Source: Xanthomonas cissicola (GTDB taxonomy: Bacteria; Pseudomonadota; Gammaproteobacteria; Xanthomonadales; Xanthomonadaceae). From it: a DNA stretch of 64,000 nucleotides. The DNA lies in assembly GCF_008801575.1 (NCBI RefSeq), contig NZ_VZPL01000003.1:62001-126000 (forward strand), in the 5' to 3' direction. The notes beneath the pieces are model-generated. The model searched no databases. It saw only the letters and a program-made list of their open reading frames with translations, and was not told the DNA's origin. Below are positions 53,788-56,869 of the stretch, piece by piece (position 1 is the first letter of the stretch; every line of letters begins with the position of its first letter). The translations under genes were made by a program, and so were the position numbers.

Positions 53788-55224
53788 CTATCTCGACTGA
53801 TCGCTGGACGGCGGCGGTGGATCCAGCAACTGACGGAGATCCTCGACAAATCCGCGATACCCTTCTTCGCGCGCATCCGTCGATGGCTGGCGCAATACCC
53901 AGGACGGGTGCACCGTGGTCAATACCGGCGTGCCGTCGTCCAGGCGCTGCCATTGCCCGCGTTGCTGCATCAATCGGAAGCGGCTTCCCAACACGGCTTG
54001 CGCCGCAGTCGCGCCCAGGCAGACGATCTGCGCCGGACGCAAGTGCGCCCGTTCGGCCTGCAACCACCCGCTGCAGGCCTGCACATGGGTGCGCTCCGGA
54101 TTGCGATGCAGCCGCCGTTTGCCGCGTTGCTCGAAACGAAAATGCTTGACCGCATTGGTGACGTAGAACGTCTCGCGGTCCACACCCAGCTCGCCCAACG
54201 CCATGTTGAACAGGCGCCCGGCGGGACCGACAAACGGACGACCGCTCAAGTCCTCTTCATCGCCCGGCTGCTCGCCGATCACCATGACCGACGCATCGTC
54301 GGGTCCTTCGCCGAACACCGTTTGCGTTGCCGGCTGCCACAGTTCGCAACGCCGGCAATCGCGTGCGGCAGTGCGCAACTGCGCCAGGCTTTGGGTTGCC
54401 GCTTCCGGCAATGGCGCAGGCGCTGCCGGCACCCGTCGCCGTACCGGCTCGGGCGCGCGCTCGGCCATCTCGCGAACACGCATGCCGGCATCGCGGATCA
54501 GCTCCGGCAACAGCGTGGCTTCGGGCAGGTTCTTCCAGTATTTCTGCGGCATTTCCTGCCGCATCATGGTCGGGTTGAGCCGCGCCGGGTTGAAGATATG
54601 CGCGTAGTACGTGCGCCAGAGCGTCTCTTGCGCATCGTCGGCGGGTACCTGGGTGCGCACCGCACCTTCGCCGAAGGTCAACGCCTGCCCATCCCAACGC
54701 ACACTGCGGTACGGGGTCAGGATCGCCCAACGCATGCCGGCAAACCGGCGCGCAAAAAACGGCGCCACGCGATCCACGATCCAGTGCTCGGGCTCGAACC
54801 AGGACACGAAGTCTTCTTCTTCCCCGGGCAGGCGACGAAAACGCACGAAGGCCTTCATTTTGTGGGTATCGCGCTGCACCGCTTTTTGCCATTGCCGTAG
54901 CCGGTGCACATCCACATCGGTGGCGCGTTCCAGCAGGGCTTTTTCCCCAGAGGCAACGCGCCACAGCAAGCGATACAACACAGCGTGCCGTTGCGGGTCG
55001 CGGTGACACAGCACCGAGGCCGCCAGCTGCATGAAATCTGCAGAGACCCGCGGTGGTGGCACCACGGCCGGCATCGCCAACAGTCCCTGCCCCATCAACA
55101 AGCCGCCCTGCGCCCCGCCATTCCAGGCCATATCGTCCGGCTCCACCTGCGCGCACCAGCCTGCCCGCGCCAACGCACGCCATGCTTCAAAACTCCACGC
55201 GGGTTCCACCTCGGCGCTGAACAT
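53788..55224 (-). CDS. DUF4130-UdgX fusion, uracil-DNA-binding protein
   Basis: A 478-residue two-domain protein. The N-terminal half (about 1-250) is a DUF4130 domain with KMKAFVRFRRLPGEEEDFVSW, DRVAPFFARRFAGMRWAIL and TYYAHIFNPARLNPTMMRQEMP. The C-terminal half is a family-4-like uracil-DNA glycosylase with the UdgX signature: GEQPGDEEDLSGRPFVGPAG (317-336), the RGKRRLHRNP loop with His373, and VHPSWVLR. The His in the KRRxH loop is the residue by which UdgX becomes covalently linked to DNA at uracil. Iron-sulfur cysteines are C290, C293, C384 and C402. DUF4130 is of unknown activity. It runs in tandem with a radical SAM gene upstream, a frequent association in genomes. Confidence 0.93.
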   Translation of the reverse strand: MFSAEVEPAWSFEAWRALARAGWCAQVEPDDMAWNGGAQGGLLMGQGLLAMPAVVPPPRVSADFMQLAASVLCHRDPQRHAVLYRLLWRVASGEKALLERATDVDVHRLRQWQKAVQRDTHKMKAFVRFRRLPGEEEDFVSWFEPEHWIVDRVAPFFARRFAGMRWAILTPYRSVRWDGQALTFGEGAVRTQVPADDAQETLWRTYYAHIFNPARLNPTMMRQEMPQKYWKNLPEATLLPELIRDAGMRVREMAERAPEPVRRRVPAAPAPLPEAATQSLAQLRTAARDCRRCELWQPATQTVFGEGPDDASVMVIGEQPGDEEDLSGRPFVGPAGRLFNMALGELGVDRETFYVTNAVKHFRFEQRGKRRLHRNPERTHVQACSGWLQAERAHLRPAQIVCLGATAAQAVLGSRFRLMQQRGQWQRLDDGTPVLTTVHPSWVLRQPSTDAREEGYRGFVEDLRQLLDPPPPSSDQSR

Positions 55225-55343
55225 CGTTTGCCTTGCTCTTGTAGGGGTACCGACATGCGCTTTGGAACCGTATGCCCGCGCAATGCCGTTTACCAGGATG
55301 CACGCTACCTGCGTTGGCGGGGTCAGATGCGGTTGAGCGGAGA

Positions 55344-55369
55344 TTAGGGATTGGGGATTGGGACTTGCG
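55344..55369. repeat. Heptamer repeat, single arm
   Basis: GGGATTGGGGATTGGG, a short direct array in the 193-nt gap between the radical SAM and UdgX genes. Confidence 0.6.
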
Positions 55370-55417
55370 AACGCTGGCATTGGCCAAGGAAGCAGCATCG
55401 TTGCGGGCGGAAAATGC

Positions 55418-56662
55418 TCAGTCGAACAGACTCGCCTGCCGTGGCGCAGGCGCCAACTGCGCACGCAGCCTGACCGGGTCGTCCAGGCGCTGACGCGGAT
55501 GGTGATCGAGCACGCTCACGAACGGCAGCAGCTTTTTCATCGGTACGCGCAGCCGCGCCAGGTCGCCAACGCGCAAGCGCGCATGCCGCCGCGACAACAA
55601 CAAGCGCTCCACGTTGCGCGTGCCCAGGCCCGGTACGCGCAGCAGCATTTCGCGCGGTGCCGCATTCAAGTCCACCGGAAACCGCTCGGGGTTGCGCAAT
55701 GCCCAGGCCAGCTTGGGGTCCACGTCCAGGTCGAGCATGCCGCTGGACTGCGCCGGCGCAATTTCTTCCACGCTGAACTCGTAGAAACGCAGCAACCAGT
55801 CGGCCTGATACAGCCGGTGCTCGCGCTGCAGGGGCGGTGCCTGCAACGGCAGCTTGGACGAGGCATCCGGGATGGGGCTGAAGGCCGAGTAGTACACCCG
55901 GCGCATGCGGTAATTGCCGTAGAGGTTGTGGCTGGTGTCCAGGATGCTGCGGTCGTTGGCATTGTCGGCGCCGACGATCATCTGCGTGCTCTGCCCGGCC
56001 GGCGCGAAGCGTGGCGGCTTGGCGCGGCGCACCGTTTCAGCCTTGCGTTCGAGCTGGTTTTCTTCGATGCGCCAGCGCAGCTCGCCCATCGCCGAGCGAA
56101 TGCCGCCCAGGCTTTTCTCCGGCGCCAGCAACGTCAGGCCCTGTTCGGTGGGCAACTCCACATTGATGCTCAAGCGATCGGCATAGCGTCCTGCCGCCGC
56201 TAGCAACTCCGGAGCCGCATCCGGGATGGTCTTGAGATGGATGTAGCCGGCGAAATGGTGCACCTCGCGCAACTGCCGCGCCACTTCCACCAGTTGCTCC
56301 ATGGTGTAGTCGGAGTTGCGGATGATGCCGCTGGACAGGAACAGGCCTTCGATGTAGTTGCGCTTGTAGAAGTCCAGCGTGAGCGTGACCACTTCTTCCG
56401 GCGTGAAGCGCGCACGGCGTACATTGCTGGACACGCGATTGACGCAGTACGCGCAGTCGAAGATGCAAAAATTGGTCAGCAGGATCTTCAACAGCGACAC
56501 GCATCTGCCGTCGGGCGTGTACGAGTGGCAGATGCCCATGCCCTCGGTGCTGCCGATGCCGCCGGTGCCCAGCGAATTGCGCTTGTTGGCGCCACTGGAA
56601 GCACAGGAGGCATCGTATTTGGCGGCGTCGGCGAGGACGGCGAGCTTGTCGAGGATTTTCAC
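55418..56662 (-). CDS. Radical SAM protein, putative DNA modification/repair
   Basis: A 414-residue radical SAM enzyme. The [4Fe-4S] cluster motif is CIFDCAYC with C66, C70 and C73, preceded by GICHSYTPDGRCVSLLKILL. The core continues with LFLSSGIIRNSDYTMEQLVEVAR and YIHLKTIPDA. The C-terminus has a helix-hairpin-helix DNA-binding element (DLNAAPREMLLRVPGLGTRN). This pattern is the family annotated as putative DNA modification/repair radical SAM protein, almost always adjacent to a DUF4130 protein. The reaction is unknown; analogy to spore photoproduct lyase is inference. It is transcribed ahead of the UdgX fusion. Confidence 0.92.
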   Translation of the reverse strand: MKILDKLAVLADAAKYDASCASSGANKRNSLGTGGIGSTEGMGICHSYTPDGRCVSLLKILLTNFCIFDCAYCVNRVSSNVRRARFTPEEVVTLTLDFYKRNYIEGLFLSSGIIRNSDYTMEQLVEVARQLREVHHFAGYIHLKTIPDAAPELLAAAGRYADRLSINVELPTEQGLTLLAPEKSLGGIRSAMGELRWRIEENQLERKAETVRRAKPPRFAPAGQSTQMIVGADNANDRSILDTSHNLYGNYRMRRVYYSAFSPIPDASSKLPLQAPPLQREHRLYQADWLLRFYEFSVEEIAPAQSSGMLDLDVDPKLAWALRNPERFPVDLNAAPREMLLRVPGLGTRNVERLLLSRRHARLRVGDLARLRVPMKKLLPFVSVLDHHPRQRLDDPVRLRAQLAPAPRQASLFD

Positions 56663-56869
56663 GCGGGCAGCATGCAGCGGTGGCGTCTCAGCCTATGAGA
56701 CTCGCCTGCACCTGATCGTGAATGCTTCAGAGCGCTGCGGGTTGGCGTGATCCGGCAGCGCGCGACTGCAATGCGAACCCGCTGCCAGCGAACGTGCGAC
56801 TACGCTCTTCCCATCGGCACTGCAGCTCTTGGCCCAAACATGCCGATGCGCCCACGTCCGCACCCGGCG

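Follow-up and report, generated by a model that had tools for sequence, protein, structure and literature searches.

The 64,000-nucleotide stretch of Xanthomonas cissicola DNA considered here (the window; C3:62001-126000 of a host genome of 5.35 Mb in 314 contigs) carries on its minus strand two genes, the first of which codes for a radical S-adenosylmethionine (SAM) protein of the TIGR03916 family and the second for a fusion of DUF4130 with UdgX, a uracil-DNA glycosylase (UDG). Together they are a typical example of an operon family that is known but has yet to be explained. The coordinates and the domain content proposed for them in an initial annotation are borne out by TIGR03914, TIGR03915 and TIGR03916 scores above the cut-offs (Table 1). 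The open frame that holds the fusion spans 53788-55464 on the minus strand, and Pfam detects in it DUF4130 at 142 bits (cut-off 27) and UDG at 121 bits; the sole Pfam match of the radical SAM protein is the generic Radical_SAM model, and the closest relative of this protein among the matches listed is that of X. dyei, with 98% identity.

Table 1. Features of the operon, in positions of the window.
Feature	Position	Strand	Basis
Radical SAM protein TIGR03916, 414 aa, GTG start	55418..56662	-	559.5 bits against a cut-off of 343.5
DUF4130-UdgX fusion protein, 478 aa, likely start ATG at 55224	53788..55224	-	Profile scores
DUF4130 / TIGR03915 domain	54517..55194	-	220 bits against a cut-off of 112
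UdgX domain TIGR03914	53830..54513	-	323 bits against a cut-off of 190; alignment with 6AJO
R-loop KRRLH including His373	54106..54120	-	6AJO alignment
Radical SAM CxxxCxxC, Cys66/Cys70/Cys73	56444..56467	-	Invariant in 53/53 aligned proteins
N-terminal stretch Cys20 to Cys54 (Cys20, Cys45-His46, Cys54), possible second metal site	56501..56605	-	Pattern in 113/113 proteins
Helix-hairpin-helix-like tail of the radical SAM protein	55568..55681	-	Weak ComEA/RuvA matches, VPGLG motif
Palindrome GTCTCA-N5-TGAGAC, candidate LexA-type operator	56685..56701		22 nt before the start codon of the radical SAM gene

The distribution of the two genes was followed in 200 Pseudomonadota genomes, the host included, and in 194 Verrucomicrobiota genomes, with matches counted above the curated cut-offs and the kinship of the genomes ignored. 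TIGR03916 is present in 31 of the 200 Pseudomonadota genomes and so is TIGR03915, the two sets of genomes being identical, and in all 31 carriers the two share a contig and a strand, the radical SAM gene comes first and the profile matches are 26-636 nt apart. Among the Verrucomicrobiota, TIGR03916 and TIGR03915 are found in the same 14 genomes; the genes are adjacent in 11 of these and reside on different contigs in the remaining three (G391, G410 and G446). The wide co-occurrence that had been asserted for these families thus holds when TIGR03914/03915 are counted against TIGR03916. Below the cut-off, weak TIGR03916 matches appear in six more Pseudomonadota genomes and a weak TIGR03915 match in one (G071, a fragment with a stop), and the corresponding numbers for the Verrucomicrobiota are 57 genomes, 28 of which carry a sister subfamily described below, and a single genome (G294). 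Caulobacter vibrioides, included as a control genome, has matches to TIGR03914, TIGR03915 and TIGR03916, that to TIGR03915 exceeding the cut-off. In 80 named loci, which rank best among 589 confirmed candidates and are skewed to close relatives, DUF4130 lies downstream on the same strand within 1.3 kb in 79, the exception being L103. Taken together, these counts suggest that the radical SAM protein and DUF4130 form a near-obligate pair, far beyond chance as long as kinship is left aside.

The attachment of UdgX to this pair is looser. A fused UDG is lacking in 8 of the 31 Pseudomonadota carriers, and a UDG is present in 64 of the 80 named loci and missing from 16, two of which (L071 and L103) are truncated where the contig stops. 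On an unannotated fecal contig, which we would guess to come from Bacillota, a radical SAM gene, a DUF4130 gene without UDG and a gene for a Rad3/DinG-family helicase stand in a row. Since the pair occurs without fused UDG in all three of these settings, its gene content indicates that the radical SAM-DUF4130 pair is the core of the system and that UdgX is optional. The proposal that the radical SAM enzyme makes or undoes a lesion which is then recognised by UdgX is, therefore, not supported as the rule for the core. Viewed from the side of UdgX, 29 of the 200 Pseudomonadota genomes have it above the cut-off, 23 of them together with DUF4130 next to the radical SAM gene, for the most part behind an SOS-type box: in 21 both domains share one open frame, and in two the arrangement is interrupted, by a broken frame in G155 and by a split over contigs in G194. 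The other six (G051, G055, G071, G139, G154 and G171) possess UdgX without the radical SAM-DUF4130 pair. The families, their linkage and their SOS control in several phyla have already been published; in the open-licence PMC literature, no paper linking UdgX to either DUF4130 or a radical SAM protein was found.

The region upstream of the operon points to the conditions under which it may be expressed. When 300 nt before the radical SAM gene were scanned on both strands in 111 loci (L001, L112 and L113 were dropped), an exact LexA-type box of one of four types was found in 101, or in 100 of 110 if L025 and L067, which are one genome region, are counted once. The alphaproteobacterial direct repeat is present in 83 loci, against an expectation of 1.0 based on other windows of these loci, and is located within 100 nt of the start in 81 of them. 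CTGTN8ACAG, which we take to be the E. coli motif, occurs in 11 loci (0.32 expected in the same way), GTCTCAN5TGAGAC in 5 (0.00 expected) and GTTCN4GAAC, presumably the motif of Verrucomicrobia, in 2 (0.23 expected). Upstream of the operon in the window, the E. coli-type and TTAGN6TACTA boxes are absent. The alphaproteobacterial LexA motif is as stated in a passage of PMC8565304. These boxes suggest that the operon is under SOS-type control, with a box type common to recA and other SOS genes.

Two published systems appear to be related to this one. COG4277 is, we presume, the same family as TIGR03916. According to the relevant passages of PMC8565304, a COG1573-COG4277 operon is SOS-regulated in Bacteroidetes, and Verrucomicrobia and Alphaproteobacteria are cited there as well; by its description this operon, too, combines a UDG with COG4277 under SOS regulation, but its LexA motifs differ, and in those passages it is treated as base excision repair with no mention of DUF4130, UdgX or a crosslink. 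In Clostridium acetobutylicum, LexA control was predicted for the CAC3343-CAC3344 pair, which consists of the same annotated radical SAM gene and a partner of unknown function, CAC3344, that may be DUF4130; the portion of PMC3828012 devoted to the pair mentions no UDG.

The palindrome that precedes the operon in the window deserves separate consideration, as the box and its regulon in the Xanthomonadaceae are new in this analysis. With up to one mismatch allowed, the window contains one match against 0.10 expected. The palindrome is present in all five Xanthomonadaceae loci first examined, with spacers that differ between them. The radical SAM gene was then found in 18 of 60 Xanthomonadaceae genomes drawn, in which the palindrome keeps to a narrow range of distances to the gene and the best upstream site agrees with it at 12 of 12 positions in 11 genomes, at 11 in 5, at 10 in G237 and at 9 in G231, so that by its letters it appears intact or nearly so in 17 of the 18 carriers. 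Of 1,754 windows drawn at random from these loci, 47 gave a score of 9, five a score of 10 and thirty a score of 11; the score-11 matches, left in the count, are probably the near-exact boxes themselves. The exact palindrome occurs at 75 sites in 41 of the 60 genomes and the reversed pattern at none in all 60. When the 75 sites are sorted by the gene directly downstream, 42 belong to genes of repair or recombination: 21 precede a gene for a DEAH helicase, 11 the operon described here, 4 a gene for an Lhr-type helicase, 3 recA and 3 rmuC. Profile searches served to check one representative each of RecA, RmuC, the Lhr-type helicase, DUF763, Cas3 and Cas9, and the others were assigned by similarity or by eye. 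The best NCBIfam match of the DEAH helicase is TIGR03817, under its cut-off, and the protein presumably resembles MrfA/Hrq1. In the host genome, a one-mismatch version of the palindrome precedes umuDC, and recA has a 10-of-12 version. We infer that the palindrome is read by a LexA; the beta/gamma motif is read by neither of the Xanthomonadaceae LexA proteins, as indicated in part of PMC3108266.

Several of the remaining sites stand before genes of other kinds. Palindromes are located upstream of cas3-type genes at three sites, one confirmed by profile and two by eye, and upstream of a cas9 gene at one (L161 at 1501 and 3059, L176 and L166; genomes G253, G256 and G233), which hints that CRISPR-Cas may be under damage-linked control. 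Exact palindromes, mostly with AT-rich spacers, precede genes judged by eye to be mraZ-like in L125, L138, L158, L169 and L182 and may reflect either another regulator or SOS control of division genes. A palindrome lies 43 nt before DUF763-type genes in L144 and L185, the latter confirmed by profile, and the DUF763-type gene is a candidate for an unstudied DNA-damage gene. In the host itself (L151, C96:8265), a one-mismatch box is found 16 nt before a gene for a YgjP-like metallopeptidase, a site that is of interest since UdgX forms DNA-protein crosslinks. In L117, the gene that follows a site was taken by eye to be GIY-YIG/Cho-like; the segment tested gave no Pfam match, and the site was left uncounted.

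In an alignment of 53 radical SAM proteins of this family, six cysteines never vary, namely those of the CxxxCxxC motif and, closer to the N-terminus, Cys20, Cys45 and Cys54. The six-cysteine pattern with a histidine after Cys45 is present in 113 of 113 radical SAM proteins (one duplicate pair among them), and its invariance is new in this analysis. The sister subfamily mentioned above, found in 28 Verrucomicrobiota genomes without DUF4130, scores 244-297 bits, under the TIGR03916 cut-off. The 11 of its proteins that were read (L247-L257) are without Cys45-His46 and Cys54, and their loci are without an SOS box. Because this DUF4130-less subfamily does not have Cys45-His46 and Cys54, the residues Cys20, Cys45-His46 and Cys54 may constitute a second metal site used together with DUF4130, and the protein may hold a second Fe-S cluster there. 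Methylthiotransferases of the MiaB/RimO type possess an N-terminal domain in which three cysteines bind an auxiliary cluster. As for the rest of the description given to this protein in the initial annotation, its radical SAM nature is firm, and the DNA-binding helix-hairpin-helix tail is suggested by weak profile matches to ComEA and RuvA with E values of 0.015 to 0.35 and by a VPGLG motif.

A further point of comparison is spore photoproduct lyase (SplB). In that enzyme, a conserved cysteine downstream of the cluster motif serves as the H-donor. No invariant cysteine follows Cys73 in the 53 aligned radical SAM proteins, and the identification of the protein as a spore photoproduct lyase was rejected on these grounds. 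The two have in common that SplB is a radical SAM enzyme acting on DNA damage and is SOS-regulated in several species, as reported in a section of PMC8565304; they differ in that the protein described here has no invariant cysteine past residue 73, carries three additional N-terminal cysteines and has the helix-hairpin-helix-like tail. In one Acinetobacter, the radical SAM gene goes up on desiccation, according to an excerpt of PMC13130816.

DUF4130 itself offers few clues. No solved relative was found, the sole match being to a ribosomal protein at E 0.15, and in PHROGs there was no significant match for DUF4130, while the radical SAM protein had one that was weak and generic. An alignment of 18 sequences from Pseudomonadota, Verrucomicrobiota and the fecal contig (L235, L002 and L026, which did not match the search pattern, were left out) keeps R128, F129, P145, F157, R160, R215 and P226 in 18 of 18 and H121, W203, M225, W230 and E235 in 17 of 18. 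Conservation of this kind fits an enzyme and a nucleic-acid-binding domain alike.

The UDG half of the fusion aligns over nearly its full length with the crystal structure of UdgX from Mycobacterium smegmatis (6AJO, E 1.8e-59), and the alignment spans GEQPG and K-R-R-[LI]-H. Both the four cysteines and the KRRLH loop that had been read from the sequence are in place, the cysteines with what we take to be family-4-like spacing; the histidine of the loop is residue 373, in agreement with the initial annotation, if translation begins at the ATG at 55224, and it aligns with the covalent His109 of the M. smegmatis enzyme. Motif A, GEQPG, is present in the window protein and in 82 of 84 fused domains (exceptions L009 and L082), and the R-loop is conserved as R-[LIMVF]-H in 83 of 84. 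In the one exception, L029, the histidine is displaced (NAVKHFKWIPRGGPNSRAVTRKH), and this UdgX is possibly no longer crosslinking. The description in PMC10359453, as far as its relevant passages go, names His109 as the histidine that becomes covalently bound and gives motif B as HPS(S/A)(L/V)(L/V)R, from which HPSWVLR of the window protein departs by a single substitution. Overall, the likeness to M. smegmatis UdgX (6AJO, PMC10359453, PMC10776899) extends to GEQPG and to the R-loop histidine, but the crystallised protein is a UDG domain alone, and the one described here is fused to DUF4130, follows a radical SAM gene and carries HPSWVLR as motif B.

A tree of 99 UDG domains separates nine family-4-like UDGs, with support of 100/100, from fused UdgX, standalone UdgX and M. 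smegmatis UdgX, which group together. The standalone UdgX proteins of G051, G055, G071 and G171, which belong to one genus, cluster with fused ones, including that of Mesorhizobium (98/95). In-frame remnants of DUF4130 are found beside them, of 57 residues in L215, 35 in L216, 15 in L214 and none in L217, as measured by homology to a fused relative in which residue 503 is the last of DUF4130, and in the three loci that have one the remnant is the C-terminal piece of the domain; these leftovers are new in this analysis. No radical SAM gene was detected beside the standalone UdgX loci or in the four genomes. Because of the tree grouping, the DUF4130 leftovers and the lack of a radical SAM gene, the standalone UdgX of this lineage is, as its sequences suggest, most likely a remnant of a DUF4130 fusion, a claim that is limited to the lineage. 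A fusion origin of UdgX in general goes beyond the tree, in which the branches of M. smegmatis UdgX, L218 and L220 do not settle the matter by their position with respect to the fused domains.

With a probability of about 60%, we consider that the two genes form an SOS-induced operon for the handling of DNA damage, in which the radical SAM-DUF4130 pair processes a lesion and UdgX caps abasic sites. A LexA-type repressor would sit on the box just upstream and would be released upon DNA damage. The radical SAM protein and DUF4130 would then carry out radical chemistry on damaged DNA, held by the helix-hairpin-helix tail, and would most likely remove or alter a replication-blocking lesion. UdgX, where it is fused to DUF4130, would excise uracil that results from deamination or was misincorporated in the course of SOS synthesis. 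It would remain attached to the DNA by the covalent bond of His373 and would thereby protect the abasic site up to its resolution. The lines of evidence for this scheme, all of them read from genomes, are the near-obligate pairing, the boxes and the shared regulon, the linkage to the mutasome, the invariant cysteine motifs and the catalytic motifs of UdgX; DNA as the substrate, the identity of the lesion, the chemistry, a second Fe-S cluster and the reading of the Xanthomonadaceae box by a LexA are proposals that go beyond them. The broader idea of the initial annotation that the locus serves in DNA damage handling is strongly supported.

A number of observations weigh against this scheme. Ten of the 111 loci have no exact box, and GTTC-N4-GAAC precedes the operon in just 5 of the 14 Verrucomicrobiota loci. 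In some of the random windows, chance alone produced a match as good as the 9/12 box of G231 or better, so that this box would not convince by itself. The host lexA1 promoter carries a different box, TTAGTAGTAATACTACTAA, which we take to be the Xanthomonas LexA box. Because 33 of the 75 exact sites stand before mraZ-, cas3-, cas9- or DUF763-type genes or in unassigned places, the palindrome stays a candidate SOS box. Finally, assembly G258, to which L103 belongs, has the radical SAM gene and no DUF4130 match, the gene ending at a contig end.

A different role in the same response is conceivable, in which the pair, in place of repairing a lesion, helps ImuB-DnaE2 or UmuDC to copy past it and UdgX marks or protects abasic sites in the template. 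Relatives of imuB and/or dnaE2 are located within 8 kb in 11 of the 80 named loci, and in the Sphingomonadales loci L069, L086, L097 and L104 imuB, the radical SAM gene, the DUF4130-UdgX gene and dnaE2 follow one another on one strand, the operon being placed between the two mutasome genes; L087 shows dnaE2 only, L099 imuB only, and five other loci have imuB or both nearby. DnaE2 was confirmed by profile as an error-prone DNA polymerase in L086 and L104, and ImuB was called by similarity, with no NCBIfam match for the L086 protein and weak Y-family matches for that of L044. To this may be added that umuDC, recA and the operon have one box type in the host genome or in the family. Eleven of 80 is, however, a small share even though several of the loci are cut short, and known translesion synthesis is not known to require a radical SAM enzyme. 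DUF4130 is termed a predicted mutagenesis-related enzyme in a part of PMC3765255, and this, too, speaks for a mutasome accessory, which on balance seems to us unlikely.

The other alternatives are considerably less probable. If the radical SAM-DUF4130 pair served to remove or process the crosslink made by the fused UdgX itself, the company of DUF4130 in 23 of 29 UdgX genomes would be natural, but 8 of 31 carriers have the pair and no fused UdgX, and 6 of 29 UdgX genomes lack the pair, which leaves this with little chance. We give equally poor odds to a modification of DNA or RNA that is constitutive and has nothing to do with damage: TIGR03916 is named for DNA modification or repair and radical SAM enzymes often modify RNA, but SOS-type boxes at 101 of 111 loci are at variance with it. 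An anti-phage or mobile defence module, the other function that had been suggested for the locus, is very improbable and was rejected as an anti-phage island. In its favour, 158 plasmid records contain a radical SAM relative, but 142 of these are typed as non-mobilizable; the SOS-type boxes at 101 of 111 loci speak against it too, PADLOC has no match for either protein at E 0.1, and exact short peptide patterns, which miss distant relatives, retrieved one confirmed relative (L258) from the 2.9 million viral contigs of IMG/VR. INPHARED yielded 10 records, namely two of Acinetobacter 'phage' and eight unannotated fecal contigs labelled Bacteriophage sp., and no convincing phage carrier was found among those opened (one Acinetobacter record and one fecal contig). 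The former, L112 (CAKLQH020000003.1, Acinetobacter phage MD-2021a), has glyS, glyQ and aroE beside the operon and looks by its gene content like mis-binned chromosome. The window neighbours scanned by profile comprise a Na+/H+ antiporter, a fasciclin, a LigB-type dioxygenase, DoxX and a LysR regulator, with no defence genes among them. The gap between the two genes of the operon, 193 nt long (55225-55417), holds a CCCAATCCC-like repeat; in many other loci the genes nearly abut.

Going beyond the SOS-induced operon as such, we tentatively suggest, while considering it less likely than not, that TIGR03916-DUF4130 represents a novel class of radical SAM enzyme with two clusters that acts on DNA lesions, a second radical SAM route to SOS repair next to spore photoproduct lyase, that its second metal site of Cys20, Cys45-His46 and Cys54 is used only with DUF4130, that UdgX is native to this system and that several standalone UdgX proteins are leftovers of it. 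In that case, the suicide nature of UdgX would make sense, as the enzyme would do the capping in an SOS pathway for the processing of lesions. The six-cysteine pattern offers a direct test for the second Fe-S cluster. In the Xanthomonadaceae, the box delineates a candidate DNA-damage regulon of compact size, with further unstudied genes among its members.

According to a passage of PMC10359453, little is known of what UdgX does physiologically, and yet the enzyme is used in genome-wide uracil methods; it also features in base-editor papers. The operon gives UdgX a native setting in which its role may be tested and points to mutants, inducers and partner proteins.

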